A stretch of DNA of 64,000 bases from Ensifer sp. LC163. GTDB taxonomy: Bacteria; Pseudomonadota; Alphaproteobacteria; Rhizobiales; Rhizobiaceae. Shown piece by piece: positions 1 through 54,005 of the stretch. The notes beneath the pieces were generated by a model, which saw nothing but the letters and a program-made list of their open reading frames with translations, had not been told where the DNA came from and did no database searches. Positions within the stretch are counted from its first letter, which is position 1. Each line of letters begins with the position of its first letter. The translations under genes were made by a program, and so were the position numbers. The DNA is taken from positions 1 through 64,000 of the forward strand of contig NZ_MBSS01000016.1 in the NCBI RefSeq assembly GCF_001695855.1. Reading direction: 5' to 3'.

Positions 1-248
1 GGCTGGCGGGCGTCTGCCGATCCGGCAGACGCATAGCCCATCGTCGAATTACCACCATTTCTGAGTGTGCGCGCCTGCAGGTCCGCGCTTGTCACCGAGC
101 CAAGGATCGAGTCGACGTCATTTCCCAATCGCCCCTCGTCCTGAGAGACGCAGCCCATGGCCAGCAGACAGACACCGAAAAACAAAGCCGTCCGAAGAAC
201 TGTACCGCTAGATCTCATCTCGTCACGACTGATTCTCGCTTCACTCAT
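1..248 (-). CDS. Partial lipoprotein gene, probable T2SS secretin GspD (N-terminus only)
   Basis: An open frame starts at 248 and runs off the left edge, giving about 82 residues. The N-terminus has a basic stretch, then a hydrophobic segment ending LLAMGC near residue 33, which is a lipobox-like signal for lipoprotein modification. The mature part seen so far is polar and Gly/Ser/Asn-rich with no domain I can identify. It is divergent from gspE across about 190 bp, and gspD is the only core T2SS outer-membrane gene missing from the adjacent cluster. I therefore infer a secretin with a lipoprotein signal. A pilotin-like lipoprotein is the alternative. An internal Met at residue 11 is another possible start. 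The gene assignment rests on context alone. Confidence 0.45.
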   Translation of the reverse strand, partial: MSEARISRDEMRSSGTVLRTALFFGVCLLAMGCVSQDEGRLGNDVDSILGSVTSADLQARTLRNGGNSTMGYASAGSADARQ

Positions 249-439
249 GTCGAAGCCTAGCATTTCTGTAAGAGACCACTATTATTATCCGCGGCTAATC
301 CACTTCTTCCATCACGGTTCTTGGGGATAACCGCATCCGGTCGCCAAGGCCGGCATGTAACAGTCCTCGATGTCGCCGAGCCGCCAAAGACGGCGGCTGA
401 ACGAACGAGGCGGTGCGGTGGCATACGGCGGCGGGACGG
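249..439. promoter_or_regulatory. Divergent promoter region between the lipoprotein gene and gspE
   Basis: This stretch separates two outward-facing T2SS genes. It includes an AT-richer segment around 260-300 that is compatible with promoters in both directions. I see no clear operator palindrome. A GTG at 413 could start gspE 27 bp earlier, but the ATG at 440 is preceded by GGGACGG and is preferred. Confidence 0.4.
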
Positions 440-2134
440 ATGAATACGGCAAAGACTGTAACGCAATTCATTCGCTATCTATTGACGAGAGAGGACCTGG
501 TCGGACCATCGGAGAGGCTGACCTTGGAGCGCTTTCTCGCGGATACGCCCTCAAATTACGCCGGCCTTTGGGAAACTGGGCTTTTGTCGGGAGAACTGCT
601 TGCCGACGCAATTGCCGAGTTTCATGGCCTGAGCCGGGCCGCATTCGACCACATCGAGTTTCGTCCCGAACTGACTGAAGATTTATCGGCACGTTTCCTG
701 CGCGCCGCATGGGTCGTGCCGGCGCTCGAGGGTGAGTGTCGGTTGCTGGTCGTTGCCGATCCGAGCCGAAGCGACGCGATCGAAGCAGCCTTGGCGGCCC
801 TTGGCCAACAGGTGGAATTGCGGATCGCGACGTTCGAGGAAATGGCGATGCTGTTCGAGCGCATGCTTTCCCAGGAGCAGGTCGAAGACCAAAGGACAGA
901 GCAATCGGCGGCACCTGTTCCTGGCGATCGAAACGAGGAGGATCTCGATCGGCTCCACGATATCGCCAGCGGGGCGCCGATCGTTCGGGCCGTGGACCAG
1001 CTCCTTGAAACCGCCCTCAGCCTATCGGCAACGGACATTCACATCGAGCCTCAACCTGACGGCGTAAGGCTGAGGATGCGCGTCGATGGAATGCTGCGGA
1101 CGATGCAGCCACTTTCGAACGAGATCGCGCGCGGCGTCATCTCACGTATCAAGATCCTGGCAGGGTTGAATATTGCCGAACGCCGGCTGCCGCAAGACGG
1201 CCGCGCGCGCATATTGATCAATTCGACTCGTGCCGATTTTCGGGTGGCGACGATGCCGACGCTGCACGGAGAGGCCCTGGTCGTGCGCATCCTCGTCAAA
1301 GGTGCCGAAGCCCTCGATCTTTCCCGTCTGGGCATGTCGTCGCGCGACTTCTCCGTTCTTCATAGGCAGCTGGCCGAACCTCACGGCCTCGTTGTCGTGG
1401 CCGGCCCGACGGGCTGCGGCAAGACGACCACACTGACGGCGGCATTGTCCAATCTGAACAGCCCCGAACGCAAGATCATGACGATCGAAGATCCGATCGA
1501 ATATCAGATGGCGGGCGTCAGCCAAACCCAGGTCAAGCCGTCCATAAACCTGACGTTTGCCAATGCGATGCGGTCGTTCCTTCGTCAGGACCCCGACATC
1601 ATGATGGTGGGTGAGATGCGGGACAGCGAAACCGCCTCGATCAGTCTCCAGGCAGCGTTGACAGGCCACCTGGTCCTAACGACCCTGCACACCAACAGCG
1701 CGGCAGACGCCATCATAAGGTTGATGGATCTGGGCGTCGAAACCTTCCTTCTGGCGTCCGCATTGCGTTGCGTCATTGCTCAGCGCTTGGTCAGAAGGTT
1801 GTGCGAGCGTTGCAAGGCGCCGATTGAAGACGAAGCGCACGCCACCTCGACATCGGCGGCGCGTCAGCGCTTTGCCGAACGCCCCGGCGACACCTGCTTT
1901 CGCGCGGTCGGTTGCTCCTATTGCGGTGACAGCGGCTATCGCGGGCGCGTTGGAATATTTGAGGTCCTGCCTGTCGATGGCGAGATCACCGCATTGATCC
2001 GAAAGGATGCGGATCCTCAAAAGATTCAGACCGTCGCCGTCCAGGCGGGCATGACAACCATGCTGGAAGACGGGCTTGCGAAGTACCGGCGCGGCGTCAC
2101 CTCGATCGAAGAGGTTCTGCGCGTAACGGTCTGA
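440..2134 (+). CDS. gspE: Type II secretion ATPase GspE
   Basis: This is the cytoplasmic hexameric ATPase that powers pseudopilus assembly in type II secretion. After an N-terminal MshEN-like region of about 150 residues comes the PilT/GspE catalytic domain. It has the Walker A motif GPTGCGKTTT at about residues 322-331, an Asp box followed by a Walker B segment (DPDIMMVGEMRD), and a His box around LTTLHTNSA. A C-terminal four-cysteine zinc module (CERC and CSYC) is typical of GspE and PilB. The length, about 564 residues, is normal. The ATG at 440 has a GGGACGG ribosome site; a GTG at 413 is the alternative. Its stop codon abuts the stop of the convergent gspC-like gene with no spacer. It is the only plus-strand gene in the T2SS cluster. 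Confidence 0.95.
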   Translation: MNTAKTVTQFIRYLLTREDLVGPSERLTLERFLADTPSNYAGLWETGLLSGELLADAIAEFHGLSRAAFDHIEFRPELTEDLSARFLRAAWVVPALEGECRLLVVADPSRSDAIEAALAALGQQVELRIATFEEMAMLFERMLSQEQVEDQRTEQSAAPVPGDRNEEDLDRLHDIASGAPIVRAVDQLLETALSLSATDIHIEPQPDGVRLRMRVDGMLRTMQPLSNEIARGVISRIKILAGLNIAERRLPQDGRARILINSTRADFRVATMPTLHGEALVVRILVKGAEALDLSRLGMSSRDFSVLHRQLAEPHGLVVVAGPTGCGKTTTLTAALSNLNSPERKIMTIEDPIEYQMAGVSQTQVKPSINLTFANAMRSFLRQDPDIMMVGEMRDSETASISLQAALTGHLVLTTLHTNSAADAIIRLMDLGVETFLLASALRCVIAQRLVRRLCERCKAPIEDEAHATSTSAARQRFAERPGDTCFRAVGCSYCGDSGYRGRVGIFEVLPVDGEITALIRKDADPQKIQTVAVQAGMTTMLEDGLAKYRRGVTSIEEVLRVTV

Positions 2135-2587
2135 TCATTGAATGGGCAGAAACATCTTGTACTCTTGGCTATGCCCACTCTGCTCGAAGGCGACGGTGCG
2201 GCTGTCGACAATCGAGAGGTTCCAGTTCCGATATTTCTCGCCGTCCTTGAGGCGATGAATCTGGCCACTTGCAGCATCCTGGAGAAGGGCTTGCCGACTG
2301 TCTGTCGTCGATATGATGCCGACGAGCTTGAGCTCCGGCGGGGCGTCCGGCACGGTCTCAACGTCGGCGGCGGCGACCGGCGCCGGCGTATCCACCGTCT
2401 CGTCAACAACGGGAGGCTGCCGCGTCGGCGTAAACAAAGGATGCAATCTCGTCGCCTCGAGCCTGTCGAGGGTCGCCCCCTGAAGCCAGGGGGCCTCGTC
2501 GGGTGTTGGTGATTGGGACGACGCGGGGCCTGCGAAAAGCAGGACGGCAATGAGCACCGACAAACGCGGATCCGACAGGGCCGTCAT
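2135..2587 (-). CDS. GspC/HR-domain T2SS periplasmic protein (short)
   Basis: A 150-residue protein begins with a hydrophobic N-terminus that looks like a signal peptide (LIAVLLFAGPASS) rather than a long membrane anchor. A Pro/Ala-rich linker follows. The last 65 residues match the pattern of the GspC homology region: ELKLVGIISTTDSRQALLQD, then a conserved LKDGE and an I.DSRTVAFE strand. In T2SS this region contacts the secretin N0 domain in the periplasm. There is no PDZ domain, so it is a minimal GspC or GspN-like connector. It is the last gene of the minus-strand T2SS operon and overlaps gspM by 4 bp. Assignment to GspC rather than another HR-domain protein is inferred from position and this motif. 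Confidence 0.7.
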   Translation of the reverse strand: MTALSDPRLSVLIAVLLFAGPASSQSPTPDEAPWLQGATLDRLEATRLHPLFTPTRQPPVVDETVDTPAPVAAADVETVPDAPPELKLVGIISTTDSRQALLQDAASGQIHRLKDGEKYRNWNLSIVDSRTVAFEQSGHSQEYKMFLPIQ

Positions 2588-3150
2588 CGTTCAGCCCTCC
2601 GCCAATAGCCTTCGACGAGCGCCAAAACGCGCAATGTCGGCGATGCATGGGGCGCCTCTTCATCGAGCGCCAGGCTCTCGATGTTGATGGATTTGACAAC
2701 CAGCGCTGTCGTGTTGGTCTCGGTCGCGAACAGTATCTTTTGCAAGGGTTCGATGGTGGTGTGGAAGAGAATCCGCATTTCGACCGTGCCCCCGGCGGGG
2801 TCGGTCTCTTCGGACGCGACAAATTCGAACTGCGAGACCACAGCACCGGTCTGGCCGATGATATCGGTGACGAGCCGCTGAAGCTCGGCGCCTGCAATAG
2901 CGGGCGTATCCCCGGGCAAATAGGAGCGTACGCTCGCGCCATCACCAACGCCGCCCACACCGCCGCCAAGCGCAGACAGCCGAGCTTTGAGTGTGTCGAC
3001 CAGGGCCGTGTCGTTCCTGTTCTCCTCAGCAAGACGCGACACGACTATGGCACTCCACGCAACGACAAGGACCGGCAGCAGCACCAGACAGGAAAGTGCG
3101 GCAATCGCCGCTACCCTGACACGTCGTGTGCTGCCGCGTGGGGTTCTCAT
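2584..3150 (-). CDS. gspM: T2SS inner-membrane protein GspM (GspMb/PilO-like)
   Basis: This 188-residue bitopic membrane protein has a short basic cytoplasmic tail, one transmembrane segment at about residues 13-37, then a coiled region and a periplasmic ferredoxin-like domain of the PilO/GspMb type. The motif around ELQRLVTDIIGQTGA is typical of this family. GspM partners GspL in the inner-membrane platform that couples GspE to the pseudopilus. It overlaps gspL and the gspC-like gene by 4 bp at each end, indicating translational coupling. The family is poorly conserved in sequence, so the call relies on topology, length and operon position. Confidence 0.75.
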   Translation of the reverse strand: MRTPRGSTRRVRVAAIAALSCLVLLPVLVVAWSAIVVSRLAEENRNDTALVDTLKARLSALGGGVGGVGDGASVRSYLPGDTPAIAGAELQRLVTDIIGQTGAVVSQFEFVASEETDPAGGTVEMRILFHTTIEPLQKILFATETNTTALVVKSINIESLALDEEAPHASPTLRVLALVEGYWRRAER

Positions 3151-4202
3151 TGTCTACCCGTTTCCGTAAAGCGCGCCAGGATCTCAAATCGTTCCAGTTT
3201 AGTATCATTGTCACGAATGATGGGTGCGGAAAAACCGGCCGCCTCCAACATATCCGAGTTTTCTAAGAGGCTGATTAAATTGGCCGCGTTTGTGGAAAGA
3301 CCTGTGACCCGGACATCGCGATCGTCTACGTCGAGAGTTGTGAGGTAAGTGGTGTCTGGAACTCGCTTGGAAAGTTCATCGAGCAGCAAGACCATGGGTA
3401 CGGCGTCCCATTTGCGCGCCAGTTTGAGCCCGGGGTCCTTCGTCGTCTCTGCCTCCTTGCGGGCCACCTCGATGGCGCCACGCAGACTTGCGAGAGAGGC
3501 GTCGATGCGGGCTGCCTCCGCGGCGGCACGATTGACGCGCCAGCCGGCGCCTGTCACCAGGATCGCGCCCACGCCCGCCAAGACGCAAAGGCAAAACAGG
3601 GAAATGTGCCGTCGCCTCTCGCGCAACGCCGCCTTGGCGCCCGGCAAGAGGTTGATCGTGCTTGGGCTATCCGGCGGGTCCGACGCAAGACCCACAACGA
3701 CCGGCGTTATGCCGACTGCTTGGTACGGTTCGATGGCGCTGCGCATCGTCGTGAGCGACGTCGCGACAAGCCGCACATGCAACTGGCCGGAAAGCCTGGC
3801 GGCCTCGTTCTCCTGGATGTCGTAGTCGTACACCATCTTCTCCGATGGCCACGGCATGATCTGCTCGATCTGATGCCGGATGATCGCCTCGATGTGACCG
3901 CGGCTGGCGGCCGGCAGACGCAGAGAGCGCACCACAACCCCGTCACCCGCCAGCCGCAGCTCGACGGGATGTGCTCCGACTATCTTGTTGAGCCAGCCAT
4001 TCCGCAAATCCGCACGCGCGCCGTCCCCCTTGTGCACCGGTCGGGCGCGGCCGACGCGATAACAGGAGAGCTTCGCCCGTTCATCGACAAGAAGAAATTT
4101 ACCACGCGCCGCGTGCGGGAGCCCGATCATGGCCTGCCACGACGTCATCTCGTCGAGAAGTGCAGCCATCCCGCGCTTGATGTATGCGACAAGACCACTC
4201 AT
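3147..4202 (-). CDS. gspL: T2SS protein GspL (PilM/PilN-type)
   Basis: About 351 residues. The N-terminal half is a reduced actin-like GspL/PilM cytoplasmic domain, including an IIRHQIEQIMPWP segment characteristic of the family. A transmembrane helix follows at about residues 205-228 (ISLFCLCVLAGVGAILVTGA). The C-terminal periplasmic part is PilN-like, with LLDELSKRVPDTTYLTTLD. GspL recruits GspE to the membrane and pairs with GspM. The open frame extends to 4286, but that would run 68 bp into gspK. The ATG at 4202, 16 bp after the gspK stop, avoids this and is chosen. The stop overlaps gspM by 4 bp. Confidence 0.85.
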   Translation of the reverse strand: MSGLVAYIKRGMAALLDEMTSWQAMIGLPHAARGKFLLVDERAKLSCYRVGRARPVHKGDGARADLRNGWLNKIVGAHPVELRLAGDGVVVRSLRLPAASRGHIEAIIRHQIEQIMPWPSEKMVYDYDIQENEAARLSGQLHVRLVATSLTTMRSAIEPYQAVGITPVVVGLASDPPDSPSTINLLPGAKAALRERRRHISLFCLCVLAGVGAILVTGAGWRVNRAAAEAARIDASLASLRGAIEVARKEAETTKDPGLKLARKWDAVPMVLLLDELSKRVPDTTYLTTLDVDDRDVRVTGLSTNAANLISLLENSDMLEAAGFSAPIIRDNDTKLERFEILARFTETGRQ

Positions 4203-4218
4203 CCAATCCGCCCCGCCA

Positions 4219-5100
4219 TCAACGAGCCGCCCGACCTGCAGGAGCCCATTCGTACACAGCATATCCCTTCGCCTCGTCTTCGGCATCCGCTATGATGGCG
4301 TGCGCAGCGCTTGTCCTGCCACTTTCGCTGCGGGCGATCACATTAAGCCGGTATACTTTAGGGCGCTCTTGCGTGACGAATTTGTCATACCGCTGAAACA
4401 GCCCTCGCAATTCGCCGTCGTCACTTTCTGCGCCGCCCGTTTCACTGGCGGCCAAGGCCGAGGCATGCCTATCGCTCATCTCAGGGACAGCCATCAAGAC
4501 ACGGCGCGACAAAGCGGCCGGATAGAGCAAGCCCGTGCGGTTGTAGACGGTGACAAACGCTTCCAGGCGCAGATAGTCGGCTTCGCTCAAACCCCTGATG
4601 AAGCGCAGTTCGCTCACAGACTGGAACGCAACGTTTGCCGGTAGGCCGTTTGTATCGCTTGCCAGATAGTCCGCGCGCTCGGCGCCGCCCGTCGTTCTTT
4701 CATCGTCCTCATCACGCCAGTCGACGACCCGCGCGGCGAATGACTTGGGTGAAAGCGACTGCCCTCTTGCGGCCTTGAACACGCCCTCCAGCAATTCGGG
4801 TGGTGACGCGTTCAGATCCACCCGTCCAGTCTCCGCCGAGACATGCAAGGTAACGCTGCCGCTTGGCAGACGAATTGTCCTTCCATCCACCGACGCGGCA
4901 TCGATATCCGCGATGAAGAGAAGGTATGCAGACGCTGCGACGCCGCTTTCCAGCAGGTTTTCCACCACGAGGTCGTCCGCCCCCAGCCTTGTCAGCACGA
5001 GTGCCGGCCGCGACAGCAGCACCAATGTCGATACAATCCCGGCCAGCAGGCCGCTGACGACAAGCACGGCAAGCGTGGCAAATCCGCTATCGCGCCGCAT
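4219..5100 (-). CDS. gspK: T2SS minor pseudopilin GspK
   Basis: At 293 residues this is the large minor pseudopilin that caps the pseudopilus tip. The N-terminus MRRDSG/FATLAVLVV is a prepilin-type signal cleaved after Gly6. The usual Glu at position +5 is Ala, the known hallmark that separates GspK from the other pseudopilins. The later sequence contains the SAM-like fold region with RVDLNASPPELLEGVF and VDWRDEDDE, both typical of GspK. It overlaps gspJ by 14 bp. The mature protein would need a prepilin peptidase, and none of the GspO type is present in this window. Confidence 0.9.
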   Translation of the reverse strand: MRRDSGFATLAVLVVSGLLAGIVSTLVLLSRPALVLTRLGADDLVVENLLESGVAASAYLLFIADIDAASVDGRTIRLPSGSVTLHVSAETGRVDLNASPPELLEGVFKAARGQSLSPKSFAARVVDWRDEDDERTTGGAERADYLASDTNGLPANVAFQSVSELRFIRGLSEADYLRLEAFVTVYNRTGLLYPAALSRRVLMAVPEMSDRHASALAASETGGAESDDGELRGLFQRYDKFVTQERPKVYRLNVIARSESGRTSAAHAIIADAEDEAKGYAVYEWAPAGRAAR

Positions 5101-5752
5101 TGCCGCCTCCCCTGCAGACGTCTCCCTCGCCGCAGGCCGAAGGCGAGTCGACGTGCGGTGAAATCATCAGCGTCAGCGGTGCCCGCCGCTCGTCGGACCT
5201 GTCCCAAATCTGCAGTCGAACAATGTCCGGAAGCTTGGACTGCGCAACCCAGGATCCGCGCCAGATGGTCCCGCGCTCCGTAATCTCGGCAAAGGAAAAG
5301 CGCCAGCGCCACGCCCCCTCGAACAATGCGATCGGCGCGGACGAGCGAGCCCTTTCGAAATCAGCCGCTCCGGGAACCCGCACGGCTGAAGACCTTGTGA
5401 GCGCGGGCGGCTTGGACCTCACCGCAATCCACACCGTCTGATCCGCCCCAAACTGCGCCTCGACCCTGATGGCAAACCCGAGCGCCTCGTCGCTGCCATA
5501 AAACAGGAGCGGCGCATTGGCTGCCGCGCCTGTCTTGACTGCGGCGATCTGTGAAAAATCTCTTCGCAATGCGGCAAGGCCGGTCGTAAGCTCTTCGAGT
5601 GTGGCAGCCCCTCTCGAAGCCGCGGCCGACGAACGTGTCACGAGCGAAACCGCGAGCATGAGTGCGTGCAGGACAAGTGCGCTGAGCAAGAGCACGGCCA
5701 GTGCTTCAAGAAGCGCGAAACCTTCGTCCTTCGGTGCCCGCACTCTGTTCAT
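5087..5752 (-). CDS. gspJ: T2SS minor pseudopilin GspJ
   Basis: This 221-residue protein has a prepilin signal cleaved after Gly11 in front of FALLEALAVLLLSALVL, with Glu at +5. The rest is the GspJ beta-rich domain, with a WRWRFSFAEI-like strand and a C-terminal segment LPDIVRLQIWD that is typical of GspJ. GspJ forms the tip complex with GspI and GspK. It overlaps gspI by 4 bp upstream and gspK by 14 bp downstream, so it is in the middle of a coupled operon. No deviation from the family is evident. Confidence 0.88.
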   Translation of the reverse strand: MNRVRAPKDEGFALLEALAVLLLSALVLHALMLAVSLVTRSSAAASRGAATLEELTTGLAALRRDFSQIAAVKTGAAANAPLLFYGSDEALGFAIRVEAQFGADQTVWIAVRSKPPALTRSSAVRVPGAADFERARSSAPIALFEGAWRWRFSFAEITERGTIWRGSWVAQSKLPDIVRLQIWDRSDERRAPLTLMISPHVDSPSACGEGDVCRGGGNAAR

Positions 5753-6162
5753 TGGGCAACCCCGACCAAGAGACGGTCAACGGCAAGGACTCGCGAAGCA
5801 GATACCTCGACGGAAATTCTTGCTTCAAGCAGCGCGCGGCCGTTGCCTGGCGGCGCATCGGCTACTTCCGCTGGGACAACAACCACACGCCATCGGCGTC
5901 CCCGCACCTCACCAGAAAAAACACCGGGCCGTGTTCGCCCGTTTCGCAACTCCCCCGCCAAAACCTCCTCGGCGACCAGCCTGGCCTCAAGCCACGCACG
6001 GGAATGACCGATCGACGCGCGGGCAGATACCAGACTGCGAGGAACGACCGAAACCACCGCCGCAAGGATCGCGACCGCAACGAGAACCTCGAGCAGGGTG
6101 AAACCCGCGTCGCCACGGCACTTGTCCTTGGCCACCTCTCGACGAACGACGTGCGGGGTCAT
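5749..6162 (-). CDS. gspI: T2SS minor pseudopilin GspI
   Basis: A 137-residue pseudopilin with a 20-residue basic leader ending in Gly and then FTLLEVLVAVAILAAVVSVV, with Glu at +5. The region after the helix (WLEARLVAEEVLAGEL) is a typical GspI pattern, and the length fits. It overlaps both neighbours by 4 bp, showing ATGA-type coupling to gspH and gspJ. GspI nucleates the GspI-J-K tip of the pseudopilus. The ORF has the same GC-rich codon use as its neighbours. Confidence 0.9.
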   Translation of the reverse strand: MTPHVVRREVAKDKCRGDAGFTLLEVLVAVAILAAVVSVVPRSLVSARASIGHSRAWLEARLVAEEVLAGELRNGRTRPGVFSGEVRGRRWRVVVVPAEVADAPPGNGRALLEARISVEVSASRVLAVDRLLVGVAQ

Positions 6163-6647
6163 CGGCGCATACTCAGTACCTCCGACAGCGTGACGCCCGA
6201 GGTCAAGGGGTTGACCGCTATGCGGTAGGCGACATTGCTCCCTTCGATCCTCAATACGCCGCCGAGCGCGCGTCCATCCGCTTGAAAGACAAACCCGCGG
6301 TGGCCGGCCGCTTGCCGGCGGCCGGAGTTCTCGATCCTCATCGCCGTGCCGTCGGGCAAGACGACCTTTCGACCAGAAGCACCCGAGACCACCGTCCCGC
6401 GCTGCGGATCGACGGCAGAAAGGACCGGCCGCCCCTGCTCTATCGCCGTATTTCTGTCATGGCGCAAAAGTGCGGTGATCTCGGCTGACCGCACCCTCAG
6501 AGCCAAGGCGCGGTTGGCCTGCGACAGGTGGGGCAACGACATTGCGGCAACCAGTGCCACGATCGCGAGCGCAGCCAGGATCTCAAGCAACGCAAATCCG
6601 CTGTCGCATTCCGCATCATTGCTGGATGGTGATATCGGCTGCGCCAT
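6159..6647 (-). CDS. gspH: T2SS minor pseudopilin GspH
   Basis: About 162 residues from the start chosen at 6647. The leader is cleaved after Gly17 before FALLEILAALAIVALVAAM, with Glu at +5. The sequence then shows GspH/FimT features, including RVRSAEITALLRHDRNTAIEQG. The open frame continues upstream to 6797, but that part lies inside gspG. The 6647 ATG gives a sensible leader and a 32-bp overlap with gspG. GspH links the tip complex to the major pseudopilin shaft. It overlaps gspI by 4 bp downstream. Confidence 0.87.
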   Translation of the reverse strand: MAQPISPSSNDAECDSGFALLEILAALAIVALVAAMSLPHLSQANRALALRVRSAEITALLRHDRNTAIEQGRPVLSAVDPQRGTVVSGASGRKVVLPDGTAMRIENSGRRQAAGHRGFVFQADGRALGGVLRIEGSNVAYRIAVNPLTSGVTLSEVLSMRR

Positions 6648-7089
6648 CGGTTCCTCCCTCGACACCATCGGCACCATAAGAGATGATCTGAGGTCTCCCC
6701 TTGCCACCGATACGGTATTGATATGGATTGCCCCAGGGATCGAGCGGCACGGAGGCCTGCTGGATATAGGGGCCCTTCCAGCGCTTGATCGCCGCACCGT
6801 CTACGAGCGCGTCCAGCCCCTCCCGTTCGGTCGGGTAGCGCGCCGTATCGAGATAGAAGAGATCGAACGCCGAAGAGAGAGCCTCGATCTGCAGCTTCGC
6901 GGCGCGGACGCGCGCCTCGGAGAGATATCCAAGCACCCGCGGAGCGGCGATGCCGGCGACGAGGCTGAGGATGATCAGGACGACCAGCAACTCAAGCAGC
7001 GTGAACCCGCCCTCTCGTTCATCGTGCCCATACCGGCAAGCACTGTGGTCGATTGGCTTTGAGCGACGGGGTGTTTTCATAGGGGTCAC
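6616..7089 (-). CDS. gspG: T2SS major pseudopilin GspG
   Basis: This 157-residue major pseudopilin has a leader of 28 residues cleaved after Gly28, before FTLLELLVVLIILSLVAGIA with Glu at +5. The C-terminal domain carries the GspG signature: the Tyr-Pro-Thr motif before GLDAL, then GPYI, and VPLDPWGNPYQYR, which forms the calcium-binding loop region. GspG polymerises into the piston-like shaft. The gene overlaps gspF by 4 bp upstream and gspH downstream. It is among the most confidently identified T2SS genes here. Confidence 0.95.
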   Translation of the reverse strand: MTPMKTPRRSKPIDHSACRYGHDEREGGFTLLELLVVLIILSLVAGIAAPRVLGYLSEARVRAAKLQIEALSSAFDLFYLDTARYPTEREGLDALVDGAAIKRWKGPYIQQASVPLDPWGNPYQYRIGGKGRPQIISYGADGVEGGTDGAADITIQQ

Positions 7090-8303
7090 AACAGCAGTTC
7101 GTTCAGACTGAGCAGGGCAGTGATCACCGAGACGATGATCCAGGCAATGAAGGCGCTGATCGCCAGCAGGACAAGCGGACCCGCTATCGCGGTGGCGCGG
7201 GCAATCGATCGGTCGAGTTTCGTTTCATAGTAGCTTGCGACCCGCCATGCCGCCTTGTCGGCCTCTCCCGTTGTCTCGCCCACTCGCATTATCTGCAGGC
7301 CATAGGGCGGGAGGAAGTCGATGCGAGCGAGCGCATCGGTAAGGCGGCTCCCGTCGCGAACTTCGGCAAGAACTCCGGCGACGAGGTTGGCGGAGTTCTT
7401 GTCTCGCATGAGGTCTCGGATGAGCCGGAGTGCGGTCGGCAGATCGACACCGCTTCTGCTCAGCATCGCGAGCGTCGAACAGAAGACGACAGCGCGCTGC
7501 TGCATGAGCAAGGTGTCGAAACCAGGGATATGGCGAAGCATGGAGATTAGCGCCGCTTTCACCGCGTCGCTGCGCGCGGCGAAAACTGCCGCACCGGTCA
7601 AAACCGCCGCCGCGTATGCCAAAAGTGCGCGGTGCCCAACGGCAATGCGCGACAGCGTGAATACCAAAGGTTCGGATCCGAGCGACGAGTTGCCCGTTTC
7701 GACGAGCGCTTGGTCGAATTGCGGAACCACGACGATAAGCACAAAGAAGAACACGCCGATCGCCGCGAAAATCAGAAAACAGGGATAGGCCAGCGCAGAG
7801 GTCAACCGATGCCTCAGTTCGCTCTGGCGCCGTCGATTTTGAGCGATCACTTGCAGCGTGACATCGAGATTGCCGGCGACTTCCGCGACCTCCACCATTT
7901 TGACGTAGGTTCGCGGAAAGGCCTTTGGATAAGCCGCTATCGCCTCACCAAGACTGTGGCCCTTCGATATAACTTCCCAGATCGAATAGACGATGCCGGC
8001 GAGCGCGCGGCGTTTGGTCGATTGATAAATGATCTGAAGGGCGCGGTCCAAAGCGACGCTGCCGGTGAGCAGGGCTGCAAGATCCTCGGTGAGCGCTGTT
8101 ACATCTTCGTATGATGGCGTCGGCGCCAGGATTGAAGCGCGTCGCTTCGGGGCGGATCGGTTCACTTCCTCTATGTCTATCGGCAGAAGAGACCGGCGTT
8201 CGAGTTCAGTCGTCATCACCGCGCTCGAAGCCGCGTCCAGATACCCCTCTAGTATGTGTCCGGACTGGTCGATAGCCCGATACCGGAAGCTCGGCATAAC
8301 CAT
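7086..8303 (-). CDS. gspF: T2SS inner-membrane platform protein GspF
   Basis: At 405 residues this has the normal GspF length. It contains two T2SSF repeats, each ending in long hydrophobic helices: one around residues 165-195 (FLIFAAIGVFFFVLIVVVPQF) and the last at the extreme C-terminus. The N-terminus MPSFRYRAIDQSGHILEG and the AFPRTYVKMVEVAEVAGNLD segment are characteristic. GspF is the polytopic core on which GspE acts. It is the first gene of the minus-strand operon, and its promoter region faces that of the multicopper oxidase gene. Confidence 0.95.
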   Translation of the reverse strand: MVMPSFRYRAIDQSGHILEGYLDAASSAVMTTELERRSLLPIDIEEVNRSAPKRRASILAPTPSYEDVTALTEDLAALLTGSVALDRALQIIYQSTKRRALAGIVYSIWEVISKGHSLGEAIAAYPKAFPRTYVKMVEVAEVAGNLDVTLQVIAQNRRRQSELRHRLTSALAYPCFLIFAAIGVFFFVLIVVVPQFDQALVETGNSSLGSEPLVFTLSRIAVGHRALLAYAAAVLTGAAVFAARSDAVKAALISMLRHIPGFDTLLMQQRAVVFCSTLAMLSRSGVDLPTALRLIRDLMRDKNSANLVAGVLAEVRDGSRLTDALARIDFLPPYGLQIMRVGETTGEADKAAWRVASYYETKLDRSIARATAIAGPLVLLAISAFIAWIIVSVITALLSLNELLL

Positions 8304-8579
8304 TCACCACCACTGGAGTGCTGCAGACGGGCGAGAACTCAACCCTGGCGATAAAGCCGGATCGAATACTAAGCTCAAGGTAATTATAAAAGAATGTCGG
8401 AAATCCTCAACAGAGGAACGTCGCAAAACCGGCGACCGACAACAATTCGTTCGATCTAAGTCGGAATAGTTATAAGACTAAAGTCTGGTCTAATCATTGT
8501 GATTGCAAGTGTTGAGGGGTACTATCTGCAGACATACAGATCGGAGGACCATGAACTACATTTGATAGGGGCGGATTAA
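8304..8579. promoter_or_regulatory. Shared divergent promoter region: T2SS operon and multicopper oxidase
   Basis: This 276-bp, relatively AT-rich region lies between gspF (minus) and the oxidase gene (plus). It contains a short inverted repeat AGACT-AA-AGTCT at 8475-8486, a candidate operator. It also contains a strong GGAGG site at 8543-8547 serving a tiny ORF. Sharing one intergenic region suggests that the secretion system and the oxidase are co-regulated. The regulator is unknown. Confidence 0.5.
8551..8565 (+). other. Possible 4-residue leader ORF upstream of the oxidase
   Basis: ATG AAC TAC ATT TGA (Met-Asn-Tyr-Ile-stop) follows a perfect GGAGG site with a 3-nt gap. It ends 14 bp before the oxidase start codon at 8580, which has its own AGGGGCGG site. 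It could be a translated leader that affects initiation of the oxidase, or it could be chance. Confidence 0.25.
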
Positions 8580-10904
8580 ATGTACATTTCTAACGATGCG
8601 TCGCGGGCGCGACAGAGAGAAGCGCGGCTCGCACGGGAAAACCGTGCCGAGATCGCTCGGGCAATCAATCAGGAACAGGTAACACGTCGCGAGTTGTTGC
8701 GATGGGGCATCTTCACGGCCAGCGGAATGCTCGCCATGAAAAATGGGCTCAGTCCGTTTGCAAAAAGCGCCTATGCGGCGGTGCCCACCGGGGCGCCGCG
8801 TACGCCGCTGTTCGGCATCAAGAAATTCTCGCAACCGATGAATCGTTTGCACCTGCTCAACCCTGTGCCGATGACGCGGACGTCAGAGGGTCATGCCGCA
8901 TTTCCCGCACAACTGGCTGAAAGGCCGGCGAAGCGATTGTCCTATCACACCGACTTTTCGGCCGATCCGACAAACAGGCAATTCATCAATCCCAGGACCA
9001 ATCGCGGGCCAATCGAGGGCCGGCCGCCCGGCGAAATCTTCGCGCATCAGCGCTGGGACGAGTTCTTTCCCAAGGTCGGTTACATCATGAGGCTGGGCCA
9101 GATTACCCAAGGCGCTACCGGCGGATACTTTCACGATGGTTTTCCGCACCAACAGCCAAACAGCGCCTGGTGCTATGGCGCCGGCAGGGCCGGCGAATGC
9201 AGCCTGCCGCCGTTCCTCATCAAGGGCCGTTACGGCGAACCCATCGTCACGCGGATCTACAATGATCTGCCCGTCGACAGGGCGGAGAACAACGGCTTCG
9301 GCCGCAACGAGACCCAGCTTCACTTTCACAATGCGCACAATGGCGCCGAAAGCGATGGCGCAGCGAATGTGCACCACTTCCCGGGCACGTTCTACGACTA
9401 CCGCTGGAGCACGACGCTTGCGCGGCGCGACAAGATCAACACACAGGCCACCGATCGGCGGGCATCAGGACCGGACGATAGTACCGGTCTCATCAATGTC
9501 CCCGGAGACTTCCGCGAACTGCAAGGCAGTATGTGGGCGCACGATCACCGCTTCTTTTTCACCGCGGAAAACGTCTACAAGGGCAATTTGGGCGCCATCA
9601 ACTACTATAGCGGCCCTGACCGCGGCAACGAGGAGCTCTCCGACGGCGTCAATCTGCGGCTGCCCAGCGGCAAACTGCTGGGCTGGGGCAATGTCGATTT
9701 CGACGTCAACCTGATCTTTTCCGATTGCGCATGCGACGCGTCGGGCCAGCTGTTCTTCGACATTTTCGACACGGACGGAATGCTCGGCGATGTGCCGCTG
9801 GTCAATTTCGGCTATGCGCCATTCTTCGAAGTCCTGCCGCGAAAATATCGCTTCCGCATTCTGAACGCCTGCATGTCACGCTTCCTGAAGCTTGCCCTGG
9901 CCGATGCCAAAGGAAATCCTGTCCCGATCAAATTCATCGCCAATGACGGGAACCTGGTGGTCACCCCCCTGACCTTGACCTCCCTTCCCGTGCAGGGGAT
10001 CGCCGAACGCTACGATTTTATCGTCGACTTTTCCGGCTTCCGCGTCGGCGACAAGATACGGGTGGTCAATCAGATCCTCCATGACGATGGCCGCGGGCCC
10101 AAGGAAGAACTCAGCCTGGCAGCGGCCATCAAGGGCCTTTCCAAGGATCCGGTGGTCGGGCCGATGCTTGAGTTTCGGGTGGTCGGCGCAGTCGAAAGCG
10201 TCGATGTGCCCGGTGTCATCCACCGCGCCACGGACCCGGACGTCAGCCGCGTTCCGCCCAAATTAACCGAACAAATACCGATCGTTACGCCGGTGCGCAC
10301 AAGGCTCGTCGAGTTCGGCAGGTCGGGAGATGGGGATTCCCGCGGGCCGGACGGGTGTGTTCCGGATTGTGGCGAAATGGTCAACTTCCCCTGGACGATT
10401 CGCATCAATGGCGAAACGTCGCATTCCATGAATGCCAACCGAATTTCCCTGCTGGTTCCGAAAGCCGGCGAGGTGGAGCATTGGACCTATAGGAACGGCG
10501 GCGGCGGGTGGGATCACCCTATTCACCTCCACTTCGAGGAGGGCGTCACCATTTCGCGCACCGGAATGAAGCTTGCAGCGACCGAGAACCTCCAGCGGAA
10601 GGACGTCTGGCGGCTTGGCGAAAGCGGCAGCGTCACCTTCCAGGTGCAGTTCGGCGAATTCGGCGGCGCCTATGTCAACCATTGCCATAACACCGTGCAT
10701 GAGGACTTCGCGATGCTGGCGCGCATTCAACTGCTGACCGGTGTGGCCGGCTCACCCCAAAGCGCGGTGACCCCTACTCCAAACCCAACCCCGGACGGCG
10801 TCGTTTTCACCACCCCGGAGATCCTGCCCGAAGGCGCGCCCAAGGGCTGGCAGGACAGCCAGCCGATGCAGGCCGCACAGCTTTCAGGCACTGTTGTTCC
10901 TTGA
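8580..10904 (+). CDS. Tat-exported multicopper oxidase
   Basis: A 774-residue copper oxidase. The N-terminus carries a twin-arginine signal (RRELLRW at about residues 41-47, then a hydrophobic stretch to an Ala-rich cleavage site), so it is exported folded. Copper motifs are complete: HFH at 248-250, HDH at 321-323, HPIHLH at 646-651, and HCHNTVH at 701-707 with Cys702 as the type-1 ligand and Met712 as the likely axial ligand. Such enzymes oxidise phenols or metal ions and reduce oxygen to water. It faces a T2SS operon and precedes a SCO-cytochrome gene, suggesting secretion beyond the outer membrane. Mn(II) oxidases of other bacteria belong to this superfamily, but the substrate cannot be deduced from sequence. 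Confidence 0.92.
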   Translation: MYISNDASRARQREARLARENRAEIARAINQEQVTRRELLRWGIFTASGMLAMKNGLSPFAKSAYAAVPTGAPRTPLFGIKKFSQPMNRLHLLNPVPMTRTSEGHAAFPAQLAERPAKRLSYHTDFSADPTNRQFINPRTNRGPIEGRPPGEIFAHQRWDEFFPKVGYIMRLGQITQGATGGYFHDGFPHQQPNSAWCYGAGRAGECSLPPFLIKGRYGEPIVTRIYNDLPVDRAENNGFGRNETQLHFHNAHNGAESDGAANVHHFPGTFYDYRWSTTLARRDKINTQATDRRASGPDDSTGLINVPGDFRELQGSMWAHDHRFFFTAENVYKGNLGAINYYSGPDRGNEELSDGVNLRLPSGKLLGWGNVDFDVNLIFSDCACDASGQLFFDIFDTDGMLGDVPLVNFGYAPFFEVLPRKYRFRILNACMSRFLKLALADAKGNPVPIKFIANDGNLVVTPLTLTSLPVQGIAERYDFIVDFSGFRVGDKIRVVNQILHDDGRGPKEELSLAAAIKGLSKDPVVGPMLEFRVVGAVESVDVPGVIHRATDPDVSRVPPKLTEQIPIVTPVRTRLVEFGRSGDGDSRGPDGCVPDCGEMVNFPWTIRINGETSHSMNANRISLLVPKAGEVEHWTYRNGGGGWDHPIHLHFEEGVTISRTGMKLAATENLQRKDVWRLGESGSVTFQVQFGEFGGAYVNHCHNTVHEDFAMLARIQLLTGVAGSPQSAVTPTPNPTPDGVVFTTPEILPEGAPKGWQDSQPMQAAQLSGTVVP

Positions 10905-11008
10905 ACGGTTGGCCGAGCCGAGGCCCGGTCAACCAGGAAGGGATTTGTCCTCGTTATGTGAGCTTGGCGCGCGTGCCGCGCCGGCTTGCCTGCTGTTTGG
11001 AGATCCAG

Positions 11009-11998
11009 ATGAAACGATGGTTCGCGGCCGTCGCGGCGGTAACCGCAATTTTTCTATCCAGCCCAGGCGAACCGGCGGCCAAGAGTTCGCGTTGGGGAAA
11101 GGACTACTTCCCGAATGTCGACGTCGTTACCCAAAATGGCGACAGGGTTCGGTTCTATGACGATCTGATCAAGGACAGGATCGTCCTCATCAGCTTCATC
11201 TTCACCAACTGCACGGACCTTTGCCCGCTGACGACAGCGCGCATCGCCCAGGTGGTGGACAGGTTGAGAGACGAAATCGGCAACGACATTTTTGTACTCT
11301 CGATCACGGTCGACCCCGAAAACGACACGCCGGACAAACTGAGAACCTTCGCCAACGCCTTTTACACCGGCCCTGGCTGGACATTCATCACGGGGAAGCC
11401 AGCCGACATTCGTGCCATCAATTCAAAGCTTGGCAACAAGAGCGATGTGGCGACCCAGCACCGCAACGAAATCGTTCTTGGCAACGACAAAACTGGCGAA
11501 TGGACAAGAAACTCGCCGTTCGCGGACATCGAGAACCTCGAGCTTGCCATCCGCGACATGGATCCGGACTGGCGGGATCGTCGTCACGTTCGGCAGGATG
11601 CCTTGGCAGCGGACCATGACCCACAGGGCCTGACAATCGGCCGCGAACCGGGGCAGGTCCTGTTCAAGAAGATCTGTGCACCTTGCCACACAGTGGGCGT
11701 AACCGATCATATCGGCCCCGATCTGCTCGGCGTCACGGACCGGCGTGACCCCAAGTGGCTGGTGGAAATGATCATGAACCCGGCCGGACTGCGCGCAAAT
11801 AGAGACCCAATCCTCGCCGACCTCGACGCGAAATACAAAGGCGTCCGCATGCCAAATCTCGGCCTGTCGGCGAGCGACGCATCGGACCTCATCTCGTATC
11901 TGGCCAGCAAAACGGCTCAGATAGAGGAGTTGCGGGCCGAGCCCGAGGAATCGCATCTCCACCCCACACAAGGCGGGTCTCATCACCAGCACAAATAG
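11009..11998 (+). CDS. SCO1/SenC copper protein fused to cytochrome c, with His-rich tail
   Basis: A 329-residue exported protein with an N-terminal signal peptide. The SCO/thioredoxin-fold domain has the copper-binding CTDLC motif (Cys68 and Cys72) and a candidate distal His at 151. It is followed by a class-I cytochrome c domain with CAPCH (Cys223 to His227) and Met281 as likely axial ligand. The tail ends in His residues (HPTQGGSHHQHK). SCO proteins deliver copper or reduce thiols; here the haem domain could pass electrons. The start at 11009 has a GGAGAT site 7 bp upstream. The frame continues to 10901 but that would overlap the oxidase end. It lies 104 bp after the oxidase and probably shares its transcript. 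Confidence 0.9.
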   Translation: MKRWFAAVAAVTAIFLSSPGEPAAKSSRWGKDYFPNVDVVTQNGDRVRFYDDLIKDRIVLISFIFTNCTDLCPLTTARIAQVVDRLRDEIGNDIFVLSITVDPENDTPDKLRTFANAFYTGPGWTFITGKPADIRAINSKLGNKSDVATQHRNEIVLGNDKTGEWTRNSPFADIENLELAIRDMDPDWRDRRHVRQDALAADHDPQGLTIGREPGQVLFKKICAPCHTVGVTDHIGPDLLGVTDRRDPKWLVEMIMNPAGLRANRDPILADLDAKYKGVRMPNLGLSASDASDLISYLASKTAQIEELRAEPEESHLHPTQGGSHHQHK

Positions 11999-12313
11999 AC
12001 GACCGCCGCTTCCCACTAAAGTACGGCGCCGCCCGACAGACTGGCTGGCCGTGAGCTTTCGGGAAGTCGCACTTAGCGGGCGGATTCGGGAGCCTGGCGT
12101 TGCAGCCTCAAGTTTTCCAGATCGCTCTGAATGAACTTTCACAACAATGCACGCCTGTTGCCTTGAGACGCCAAACGCGGCTGACAGCGATGGCATCATG
12201 CCGGCGACCATGAACGCCGGCGCGGTCAGCGAGCAGATCGTCACGATCGAGACAGGCGCTTGAACGCTGGTTCGGATCTATCTCGGTTCATGGAAAGCAA
12301 AATTTAACCATAC
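11999..12313. other. Intergenic region, no clear gene
   Basis: About 315 bp. On the minus strand, about 12150-12244 reads as a hydrophobic peptide (MTICSLTAPAFMVAGMMPSL...) resembling the first helix of an MFS transporter, after which the frame loses sense. It may be a decayed remnant. No terminator or repeat is evident. Confidence 0.3.
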
Positions 12314-13747
12314 TTGTTCATCTTTTGTCGATCGGTCGTCAAGAAGGGGACAATCCGGGAAATCGCGCAGCGGTGGTCGATCACCGGCCTGAAGGCCTTT
12401 GCAGGATTTACTGGCTTGATATGCGTTGTGAGTAAGGTCGTTCGTCCAAAGTCTTTGCACCGTCTGTTACGCCCGCTGCTGATCACGTGCTGCGGCCTCG
12501 CCTTTGCCGGCGTGGCTGCGGGGTCGGTCGCCGGCATGGTCGCAATGGGCAGCTTTTTCGCTCATGGTTCGGGCCACTTCCTGCCCAAGCCGCAACTCCA
12601 TGTGGCAGAGAGAGTAAAGGAGCGCCCGTGGGTCAAGCAGGCCAGGGTCAAACAGACGCCGAGATTGGTCGCCGCCGCGGCTGAGCCAGTCGTGCTCGCA
12701 AGCCTTACCAGTGGCCGAGCGAGATCCGCCCACGGCCCCGATGTTCCCGGAGATGCCGAGATGAGCGGCAACGCAGTGCACTTCGACGCCTTGGCGAGGC
12801 GGGCCACAGTGACATCCGAGAAACCCGCGAGCAATTTCCGGGCCTCTGGTTCCGCCACGTCGCGCCCCGCGACGGCAAAGGTTGTCGGGCCTGCGCTGGA
12901 CCGGTTCGGGCCACCGCGCGCCGGTTCGACCGATAAGCCCGAGGCCTCGCTCGCCTATGCCGACCCCTCGCAGAGCGGAGCGAACGGCGTTGCGTTTTCG
13001 GCGTTACTGGCGCCGCCGCTGGATGACGACCTCGCCGCCCTGCCAGACTATGAAGATACACCATCCTTCGGCCCTCTGCCGCAGGTCCGTCCCCGTGACA
13101 ATCAAACCCAAAAGCCTGCTGCTGAAACGGAGAACTCCGAGATCAGGCAGGCCGAAGCCGGGGCAGCGTCGAAGGTCGACGAAACCACGAAGGCCGACGA
13201 ACGCGAAACGCCGAGGCAGCAAAAGCTGGCTTATGCGCGGCCGGACGATCCGGCGGAGAACAGATCCGGCGGCGGCCTCGGCCAGGCCTTGCGCAGCATG
13301 TTCGGCGGTGGAACCAAGGCGGGAAATGGCGTCGCGGTCTACGACATCAGCGCCGCGAAGGTTTACATGCCCGACGGCAGTGTGCTCGAGGCCCATTCCG
13401 GCATCGGCAAGATGGCCGACAATCCGCGCTATGTGGATGTCAAGATGACCGGACCGACCCCACCGCACACCTACAATCTCAAGATGCGCGAAACGCGCTT
13501 CCATGGTGTCGAAGCGATCCGCATGCTGCCTATCGACGGAAAGAACAAGCACGGCCGCGACGGCTTCTTGACCCACAGCTACCTGCTGCGCGGCGGCCGA
13601 GCGGAATCGCATGGCTGCGTCGCCTTCAAGGACTACAGGCGTTTCCTCACCGCCTTCAAGGAGGGCAAGGTCCGGCAGATCGTCGTGGTGCCGAGCGGCG
13701 GACGCGCGGCTGGCATGCAAATGGCATCGAACGGAAAGAACACCTGA
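12314..13747 (+). CDS. DUF2778 (Tlde1-like) periplasmic L,D-transpeptidase-type protein
   Basis: About 477 residues. An N-terminal hydrophobic segment (residues 55-77) anchors or exports the protein. A long Ala/Pro-rich linker of some 200 residues follows. The C-terminal domain has features of DUF2778: GVAVYDISAAKVYMPDG, a THSYLLRGG segment, and SHGCVAF with Cys435 as the probable catalytic residue. This family acts on peptidoglycan peptides. The start is uncertain: the first ATG at 12314 adds a poorly conserved leader, and an in-frame GTG near 12429 would place the hydrophobic segment close to the N-terminus. It stands alone, followed by a RIME-type repeat. Confidence 0.75.
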   Translation: MFIFCRSVVKKGTIREIAQRWSITGLKAFAGFTGLICVVSKVVRPKSLHRLLRPLLITCCGLAFAGVAAGSVAGMVAMGSFFAHGSGHFLPKPQLHVAERVKERPWVKQARVKQTPRLVAAAAEPVVLASLTSGRARSAHGPDVPGDAEMSGNAVHFDALARRATVTSEKPASNFRASGSATSRPATAKVVGPALDRFGPPRAGSTDKPEASLAYADPSQSGANGVAFSALLAPPLDDDLAALPDYEDTPSFGPLPQVRPRDNQTQKPAAETENSEIRQAEAGAASKVDETTKADERETPRQQKLAYARPDDPAENRSGGGLGQALRSMFGGGTKAGNGVAVYDISAAKVYMPDGSVLEAHSGIGKMADNPRYVDVKMTGPTPPHTYNLKMRETRFHGVEAIRMLPIDGKNKHGRDGFLTHSYLLRGGRAESHGCVAFKDYRRFLTAFKEGKVRQIVVVPSGGRAAGMQMASNGKNT

Positions 13748-25466: not shown

Positions 25467-25942
25467 CGGCTCGCCTCCGCCAGGCCCTTCGCAGCGCGTT
25501 CGACGGCGCGCAGGATGCCGCCGTGGGCGCCGCAGCGACAAAGGTGGCGATCAAGCGCTTCGATCACTGCCTCACGTGTCGGAGAACCGTTCGCTTTCAA
25601 CAAGGCGAACGCAGACATGACGATACCGGAGAGGCAATATCCACATTGGCCGGCATGCTCGGCGTCAAAGGCTTCGAGCAGAGCACGACCGACCGGATCG
25701 TCGGCTAGCCCCTCCGGGGTGACGATCGACGCACCATCCAGAAACGATACGGGCAAGGCGCATGAATAGCGGGCCTGCCCATCGATGCTGAGGACGCAGG
25801 CGCCGCATTGTTCCAGGCCGCACCCGAAGTGGCTCGCCTTCAAGCCAAGCCGGTTTCGCAGCGCCAACAGGAGCGGCTCATCGAGGCGCCCCTCGAAGGA
25901 GACCTCGGCACCATTGACCTGGCATTGGACCCGATTGGTCAT
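25463..25942 (-). CDS. Molybdenum hydroxylase [2Fe-2S] small subunit (IorA-like)
   Basis: This 159-residue subunit has both iron-sulfur clusters of the xanthine-dehydrogenase family. The plant-ferredoxin type is GCGLEQCGAC plus a later Cys; the helical type is QCGYCLSG with LCRCGAH. It passes electrons from the molybdenum site. It overlaps the AraC gene upstream and the large subunit downstream by 4 bp each. No FAD subunit is encoded nearby, so the electron acceptor is unknown. The complex is a two-subunit form. Confidence 0.93.
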   Translation of the reverse strand: MTNRVQCQVNGAEVSFEGRLDEPLLLALRNRLGLKASHFGCGLEQCGACVLSIDGQARYSCALPVSFLDGASIVTPEGLADDPVGRALLEAFDAEHAGQCGYCLSGIVMSAFALLKANGSPTREAVIEALDRHLCRCGAHGGILRAVERAAKGLAEASR

Positions 25943-51096: not shown

Positions 51097-51115
51097 TGAC
51101 CTTCACCCTGTTCGA

Positions 51116-52866: not shown

Positions 52867-52887
52867 CTCACTATCCCACGCTGTATT

Positions 52888-53532: not shown

Positions 53533-54005
53533 CCAATATACCTCTCTTCATGGGAGGAGTTGATGGTGATGGTGTCGATGCCGAGCCAGCCGAACAGAGG
53601 CGAAGTCTGGTAGAGATGCGACGTTTCGACGGTGATCGTGCCGTTGGTGCTGATCGGCGAAATATCGAGTGCCGCCGTACCCGGGCCCCAGCCTGGAACA
53701 CGCAAGGGTGTTCCCGTGGGCGGAATGGGGCTGCCATAAAACGCGATCTTCCTTGCAATATCTTCAGTGCAGTAAGAGGTGTATGTTGGAGATTGTCGGC
53801 AGCGCGACCAATAGCGCCCGGCGTCTCTGAGCCCCGCGTCGATCTGCATCCGTTCCCAAAAGATGTTGCCGAATTCGAGTATGCCCGCCGCAAACAGCGT
53901 GACGAAGGGCACCACCACCAGCGCCTCGGCAAGCACAGCGCCCTCCTCCCTCCGCCAGAAGCCGAGACAGAGCCGATGCCGGATCAGGTGTCGGAGCGCC
54001 ATCAT
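53526..54005 (-). CDS. TadE-like pseudopilin (2)
   Basis: A 159-residue protein with a leader ending in Gly22, then AVLAEALVVVPFVTLFAAGI, with Glu at +5. It has the TadE pattern (EFGNIFWERMQIDAGLRDAGRY). It overlaps tadG by 4 bp. Together with gene (1) it forms the minor pseudopilin pair that is standard in Tad loci. Confidence 0.88.
   Translation of the reverse strand: MMALRHLIRHRLCLGFWRREEGAVLAEALVVVPFVTLFAAGILEFGNIFWERMQIDAGLRDAGRYWSRCRQSPTYTSYCTEDIARKIAFYGSPIPPTGTPLRVPGWGPGTAALDISPISTNGTITVETSHLYQTSPLFGWLGIDTITINSSHEERYIGW

Follow-up and report, generated by a model that had tools for sequence, protein, structure and literature searches.

Does a type II secretion system (T2SS) that lies back to back with a multicopper oxidase (MCO) gene in a rhizobium serve to place that oxidase outside the cell? 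The question is raised by the start of the stretch analysed here (the window, 64,000 nucleotides), which comprises bases 1-64000 of contig C16 in the 6.5 Mb draft genome of Ensifer sp. LC163. We read the locus as a copper-oxidase export module that combines twin-arginine translocation (Tat), SCO-dependent copper loading, type II secretion and extracellular oxidation, and we put the probability of this reading at roughly three in four. In such a module the Tat pathway would take the MCO to the periplasm, and its folding and copper loading would take place inside the cell envelope, where the SCO part of the adjoining SCO-cytochrome would deliver the copper and/or its cytochrome domain would exchange electrons with the MCO. 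The adjacent T2SS would then move the folded MCO across the outer membrane, and outside it would oxidise a substrate met there, most likely Mn(II), otherwise a halide or phenolics. The locus is made up of the following features.

3..263, minus strand: 5' end of gspD, 87 codons, cut at the contig edge; 90% in tblastn to the GspD of contig C30 of the same assembly
413..2134, plus strand: gspE, T2SS ATPase; PF00437 at 428 bits, NCBIfam GspE at 542 bits, below its cut-off of 630
2135..2587, minus strand: gspC-like gene (PilP/GspC HR domain), 150 amino acids; structure model matches PilP and GspC HR folds
2584..3150, minus strand: gspM (subtype b / XpsM type); PF10741, NF040576 at 74.6 bits, above its cut-off of 60
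3147..4286, minus strand: gspL; PF05137 PilN domain and position
4219..5100, minus strand: gspK, minor pseudopilin; PF21687, NCBIfam GspK at 53 bits, below its cut-off of 130
5087..5752, minus strand: gspJ-like, minor pseudopilin; position, with a sub-threshold N_methyl match only
5749..6162, minus strand: gspI-like, minor pseudopilin; PF07963 N_methyl
6159..6797, minus strand: gspH, minor pseudopilin; NF047827 XpsH at 59.6 bits, below its cut-off
6616..7089, minus strand: gspG, major pseudopilin; TIGR01710 at 129.7 bits, above its cut-off of 88.85
7086..8303, minus strand: gspF, inner-membrane platform and first gene of the operon; PF00482 at 158.7 bits, TIGR02120 at 238 bits, below its cut-off of 424
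8304..8579, no strand: divergent promoter region, 276 bp; alignment of eight loci
8580..10904, plus strand: multicopper oxidase, 774 amino acids, bilirubin-oxidase/CotA fold, four copper motifs; PF07731, ligands and model
11009..11998, plus strand: SCO1/SenC-cytochrome c fusion; PF02630 and PF00034, start from alignment with the C30 copy

The initial annotation had both gspE and the gspF-to-gspC operon share the 276-bp divergent promoter region with the MCO gene. This holds for the operon, in which nine minus-strand genes run from 8303 down to 2135 in the order gspF, G, H, I, J, K, L, M and gspC-like, while the MCO and SCO-cytochrome genes point away from gspF on the other side of the gap. It does not hold for gspE, which converges on the far end of the operon, its end at 2134 abutting the gspC-like stop at 2135, and a place for gspE at the divergent promoter is thereby ruled out. 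GspE and GspF score over the Pfam but under the NCBIfam equivalog cut-offs, which points to a divergent T2SS. The genome has the T2SS component set, namely GspD (on C30), GspE, GspF, GspG, the minor pseudopilins (GspJ by position alone) and GspO. Searches of Pfam and NCBIfam with the gspC-like protein returned nothing at E 0.001; its structure model, with a predicted local distance difference test score (pLDDT) of about 90 in the beta domain, has the pilus-machine model 3jc8 as its top structure match (E 5e-4) and also matches PilP 2y4y (E 0.007) and the GspC HR domain 3oss (E 0.01). The real start of gspH, judged by eye, probably lies between 6647 and 6677.

Two small features were seen upstream of the MCO gene. 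In the eight-locus alignment the stretch GGAGGACCATG is common to the Ensifer rows and absent from the Rhizobium rows, and within 8540-8580 of the window a short frame, ATG AAC TAC ATT TGA, stands after GGAGGACC and immediately before the MCO start. This frame is identical in three of the four Ensifer rows, altered in the row Lc04, and does not occur in such form in Rhizobium.

Tat signals carry a twin arginine ahead of a hydrophobic stretch. In the N-terminus of the window MCO the segment TRRELLRW places two arginines, at 36-37, ahead of a weakly hydrophobic stretch, and all 12 copper-ligand positions checked (T1, T2 and T3) are filled, with Met 712 as the axial ligand; the protein thus has the predicted features of the Tat-type multicopper oxidase that had been annotated. 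The ligand set is complete in 31 of 34 aligned MCOs, the exceptions being two with an axial Leu and one with Gln. The model of the window MCO (predicted template modelling score 0.84, mean pLDDT 78) shows a three-cupredoxin fold, for which Foldseek returned bilirubin oxidase/CotA structures, 6iqz_A with a TM score of 0.77 by target length and 0.70-0.84 among the 50 matches listed. With bilirubin oxidase and the CotA laccases the family thus has in common the three-cupredoxin fold and a ligand set with axial Met; it differs in being about 240 residues longer than bilirubin oxidase, Tat-type and T2SS-linked, with 18-24% identity to the 50 chains listed. Ten family members have calculated masses of 84-87 kDa (85 kDa for the window MCO). 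The SCO/cytochrome c gene noted behind the MCO is confirmed as a fusion that carries both domains. Its start is most likely the ATG at 11009 (329 amino acids) and not the TTG at 10901, because the protein then aligns with the C30 copy from residue 1. By eye it has a CxxxC, a CxxCH and a His-rich tail, and the best solved chain for its cytochrome part is 2l4d, deposited as a SCO1/SenC family protein/cytochrome c.

The supposition that MCO and T2SS go together was borne out across genomes, since every MCO genome has GspD in samples of 16 (genus), 151 (family) and 397 (order) genomes. In the genus sample the MCO was found in four genomes and GspD (E <= 1e-70) in the same four; in the family sample 5 genomes have the MCO and 23 have GspD, and in the order sample the numbers are 10 and 65 (GspD at E <= 1e-90), all MCO genomes being covered each time. 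The linkage far exceeds chance (Fisher p 5.5e-4, 5.5e-5 and 7.5e-9 for genus, family and order, with kinship ignored), and in five of the ten MCO genomes of the order sample MCO and gspD lie on one contig, within about 12 kb. While the oxidase is always accompanied by a T2SS in these samples, outside the genus the T2SS is mostly without the oxidase (18/23 GspD genomes in the family sample, 55/65 in the order sample). This majority speaks for a general-purpose T2SS with several exports, of which the MCO would merely be a neighbour and the linkage a result of the joint transfer of an accessory island, and substrates encoded elsewhere would be invisible to gene order. We consider this explanation unlikely; MCO and GspD are jointly present or absent across the genus, and the trees and the sister locus described below also argue against it. 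The initial annotation had tied the idea of a one-substrate system to T2SSs in relatives keeping the oxidase: T2SSs overall mostly lack it, but in the window's own T2SS lineage each of the 10 GspD rows belongs to a genome in which the MCO adjoins T2SS genes, a count that is biased in that the rows were mostly found via the MCO.

We then surveyed the neighbourhoods of 60 MCO loci, found with an alignment of nine MCOs as query and with the window's own genome outside the set; a locus was taken as linked if at least two of gspD, E, F and G lay within 10 kb on either side of the MCO, and genomes were counted by hand. Half of the loci (30/60), in 30 of 46 genomes, are T2SS-linked. They come from Ensifer, Rhizobium, Aurantimonas manganoxydans, Hyphomicrobium, Bosea, other Hyphomicrobiales and Nitrospira, and the pairing is therefore not the peculiarity of a rhizobium that it had first been taken for. 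Among the 30 unlinked loci, 12 represent a second copy or a fragment in a genome with a linked copy, and 18 come from the other 16 genomes. GspD was searched in 13 genomes with unlinked loci (10 of these 16, plus three in which another MCO copy is linked); each gave a match, 10 of them above the cut-off. In the Nitrospira locus L084 (9929-19410) the MCO has extra Ig-like domains at its C-terminus, and behind it lie genes for a SCO-cytochrome, a DUF5666/Ig protein, a second MCO and a SCO protein, then gspG/F; a similar gene order is seen in L054, L058 and L071. Extra MCO copies without T2SS neighbours were noted in seven loci (L038, L039, L041, L044, L052, L063 and L064) of Ensifer, Rhizobium and Bosea-like genomes, six of them without a SCO-cytochrome.

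To relate the oxidases to their secretion machines, we compared trees of GspD, GspE, GspF and the MCO. Groups were named by MCO linkage and taxon, group A being the T2SSs of MCO loci in Ensifer, Rhizobium and Aurantimonas and group B those in Hyphomicrobium and Bosea; the labels precede the first tree, while the choice of the A+B and B tests follows it. In the trees of all three Gsp proteins group A stands apart from group B and closer to T2SSs without the MCO, and a clade of A+B was rejected (log-likelihood differences of 144 for GspF, 154 for GspE and 387 for GspD), which rules out that T2SS and MCO descend as one ancient unit. In the GspE and GspF trees Nitrospira makes up a third group. 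In the GspD tree the T2SSs of L127 and L128 group with the Hyphomicrobium/Bosea type, though the detected MCO lies elsewhere. In the MCO tree, on the other hand, the A-linked oxidases are nested among the B-linked ones, and a single clade of B-linked oxidases was rejected (log-likelihood difference 69.6, p 2.3e-4; 3 of the 18 B rows, L072, L073 and L082, omitted). Since the oxidases are nested while the A and B machines are separate, the simplest reading is an exchange of partners, in which the oxidase family would first have been tied to a B-type T2SS and would have changed its machine en route to Rhizobiaceae and Aurantimonas. The GspD tree omits four rows (L060, L082, L112 and L113), the GspE and GspF trees one row each of at least 700 amino acids (L109 and L105, respectively), and the MCO tree rows of less than 250 bits or less than 550 matched amino acids, with 56 kept.

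The converse was observed in the T2SS nearest to group A, which belongs to genome G060 (L108; support 100/99 for GspD, 96/90 for GspE and 95/92 for GspF). This T2SS has the group A gene order without this MCO, and in the slot divergent from gspF (L138 1318-5233) it has a Tat-type cupredoxin of 474 amino acids, a cupredoxin of 407 amino acids and two SCO1/SenC genes. The 407-amino-acid cupredoxin, compared with the window MCO family, showed no real similarity to it; the tandem cupredoxins could perhaps form a two-chain copper oxidase. Among the 18 family genomes with GspD and without the MCO, G060 alone has a Cu-oxidase_3 match near gspD, in a search with the single family PF07732 in which some T2SS contigs were short, whereas over the genome as a whole 16 of the 18 show one. 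A crude scan of 13 T2SS stretches for Tat motifs matched four genes, the G060 cupredoxin and a gspD, a gspF and a gspM-like gene, the latter three being T2SS parts by position. An MCO tied to different T2SS lineages, a sister T2SS with another cupredoxin/SCO set in the same slot, and a Tat scan that yields one cupredoxin besides parts of the machine are all at odds with a general-purpose T2SS. The broader claim, whose chances we regard as evenly balanced, is that a module in which a T2SS exports a copper oxidase, probably one for Mn(II), is widespread in Hyphomicrobiales and Nitrospirota, with a stable oxidase-SCO cassette and an exchangeable machine. The MCO family would then be coupled to at least two, probably three, separate T2SS lineages, an unrelated cupredoxin/SCO set would have come into the slot beside a close sister of one of them, and the T2SSs would be both dedicated and re-targetable.

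Several observations weigh against an export module and the exchange of its machine. MCO and gspD lie apart in five of the ten MCO genomes of the order sample, and 16 of the 46 surveyed genomes have no T2SS gene pair near the MCO, some of their contigs being shorter than 5 kb. Second MCO copies without T2SS neighbours are common, mostly without a SCO-cytochrome, and the Nitrospira set relies mainly on gspG/F/E. At the Tat site 23 of the 34 aligned MCOs have RR and 11 have KR, a weaker Tat motif. All trees have long branches, and the group A rows were mostly found via the MCO. GspD falls below the cut-off in 3 of the 13 genomes searched (Aromatoleum, Methylomirabilis and one Nitrospira), as would be expected if the MCO stayed in the periplasm for copper detoxification, in the manner of CueO, to which it has a weak similarity, with the T2SS as a chance neighbour. 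The conserved linkage and the presence of GspD in 10/10 MCO genomes of the order sample make such a periplasmic role very improbable.

What an exported oxidase would act upon can be approached through GE001273 of Georhizobium sp. MAB10, a three-cupredoxin MCO which, according to the accessible part of its description, oxidises Mn(II) in vitro, has relatives of more than 70% identity in Rhizobium, Aurantimonas and Ensifer, and measures 100.7 kDa as a recombinant SUMO-tagged protein (PMC11708043). Translated, the gene parts of the printed ge001273 primers read MYIAEN and DLIPKN, and the MCOs of loci L020 (Rhizobium albus NBRC 110149) and L018 begin and end with these residues. At the DNA level the two primers have 0+0 mismatches to L020 and 0+1 to L018, while the best fit to the window MCO gene has 5-6 mismatches, GE001273 being compared through its primers alone. 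The window MCO is 69-70% identical to the L020 and L018 MCOs, both of which lie back to back with gspF of a T2SS that includes gspD and gspO and follows the group A order. The family mass of 84-87 kDa is consistent with that of the SUMO fusion. Given the agreement of primer ends and mass, and a common domain number and range of genera, GE001273 very probably belongs to the window's MCO family. The main text of the GE001273 paper, as far as it is accessible, has the term 'type II secretion' a single time, among the references, and does not treat a T2SS link by that name (PMC11708043).

The fit of these primers to a T2SS-linked MCO makes Mn(II) the leading substrate within the module and iodide or phenol less favoured. 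The guess of a manganese substrate in the initial annotation gains from the in vitro oxidation by GE001273 and is checked by the level of that activity, and an extracellular manganese oxidase seems to us as apt to be right as wrong. In its favour, MCO relatives are present in Aurantimonas manganoxydans and Hyphomicrobium. A Gsp-related pathway reportedly secretes the Mn-oxidising factor of Pseudomonas putida (de Vrind, 2003). Mn oxidisers among isolates include a Rhizobium and an Ensifer close to E. adhaerens (PMC6396730, as accessible). In P. putida GB-1 mcoA is followed by a SCO1/SenC gene, a likeness by description that differs in that the accessible part of the source names no T2SS gene for the mcoA operon (PMC11409713). 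Against a manganese oxidase, the activity of GE001273 was low, 5.84 per enzyme overnight with copper added (PMC11708043); the haem peroxidase MopA has been made responsible for the Mn oxidation of A. manganoxydans, and Mn(II) is oxidised, with a high KM, by CotA and CueO as well, so that activity in vitro is not necessarily the natural role (PMC6247904, in part). The Mn oxidiser Bosea BIWAKO-01, known here by description, has a MoxA-like MCO (PMC5122683).

The competing substrates are iodide, or another halide, and phenol, to be oxidised by an enzyme like that encoded by the iox genes of Iodidimonas. In the iox clusters gsp genes flank an MCO gene and three SCO1/SenC genes, and relatives of IoxA are known from Nitrospirae (PMC9415286, in part); likewise, the Nitrospira loci carry this MCO with a second MCO, SCO genes and gspG/F/E, in a layout (L084) that resembles the published one. 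The likeness of iox to the window, drawn by description, thus lies in an MCO and SCO1/SenC genes beside gsp genes (PMC9415286; PMC4082002). It ends where iox has IoxA of 62 kDa, IoxC of 71 kDa and separate SCO genes, while the window has just an 85-kDa MCO of 774 amino acids and a SCO-cytochrome fusion, followed by an unrelated gene. With this difference in mass, and with a probable close relative that oxidises Mn(II), we find a halide or phenol oxidase rather doubtful. For the Iodidimonas enzyme itself the need of gsp genes for secretion is called unclear in the accessible part of a review (PMC9415286).

OmpB of Geobacter sulfurreducens is said to be secreted through an atypical T2SS (Mehta, 2006). 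As described, OmpB resembles the window MCO in being a multicopper protein of the outer surface that is linked to a T2SS and in having cytochrome and SCO1/SenC genes in its cluster, and differs in being an OmpB/MofA-type MCO with a fibronectin domain that serves Fe(III) reduction (PMC5566968, in part). There are thus precedents in Iodidimonas, Geobacter and Pseudomonas, and a T2SS beside an MCO/SCO cluster is already known, as far as these sources are accessible. For Ensifer/Sinorhizobium, no T2SS-MCO link was found by title or abstract opening among the papers listed in a search outside which most subscription journals lay, and in the literature searched we saw no report of a T2SS partner exchange, the cupredoxin set of the sister T2SS, the duplicated and split locus or a T2SS beside the GE001273 family. 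The pairing of the MCO with different machines in distant bacteria, together with a Mn-oxidising relative, suggests that the MCO is probably active outside the cell. A family of enzymes from soil and marine bacteria that probably oxidises Mn(II) now stands beside a candidate export machine that is amenable to knockout. The recognition of folded substrates by T2SSs is a long-standing problem, and the loci offer natural swaps both ways, one substrate family with several T2SS lineages and related T2SSs with different copper-oxidase sets; comparison of GspD, GspC and the minor pseudopilins with the oxidases could reveal parts that change together.

In the window's own strain the parts of the module are divided between two contigs. 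The only complete gspD found in the genome is on C30 (TIGR02517 at 401 bits, above its cut-off of 351), with gspO behind it, whose product, the GspO prepilin peptidase, has a PF01478 match and no NCBIfam match. This gspD is divergent from a second MCO, 94% identical to that of the window, with its own SCO-cytochrome (93%). C30 corresponds to the window minus bases 709-8218 (7.5 kb): window 1-708 aligns at 86% and 8219-12006 at 89%, the two abutting, and at the join (L004 9766-10131) remnants of gspE and gspF are found where the alignments overlap by 4 bases. The parental layout is seen on one contig in E. oleiphilus HO-A22 and Rhizobium sp. CF122, in the order gspO-gspD reading left, gspE reading right, gspC-gspF reading left and MCO-SCO reading right. 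From this alignment and the layout in relatives we conclude that the locus was duplicated, that the C30 copy lost 7.5 kb and that complementary parts survive. An assembly duplicate is ruled out by the DNA identity of 78-94% in the shared parts and the absence of a match downstream of SCO. No further large piece of the C16 gspD was found in the assembly beyond the 87 codons at the contig edge, and the rest is therefore lost or lies in a gap. About 4.6 kb past the second MCO, at G000:C30:41347-41433, there is a 29-residue piece 72% identical to the GspD secretin end. In E. adhaerens SD006 an open reading frame that by eye is transposase-like (L137 11750-12517) lies beside gspD on the side on which gspE would be expected, and the contig ends there.

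Elsewhere in the window, the next gene past the SCO-cytochrome (12314-13747) encodes a 477-amino-acid protein with a C-terminal Tlde1 domain (L,D-transpeptidase-like). A Tad/Flp pilus cluster at 49642-57473, unrelated to the T2SS, comprises a T2SSE-type ATPase (49642-51096), a Tad-domain protein (54005-55606) and a secretin (55989-57473), all on the minus strand, and a molybdopterin cofactor-binding protein of 725 amino acids (PF20256, PF02738) is encoded at 23367-25541.

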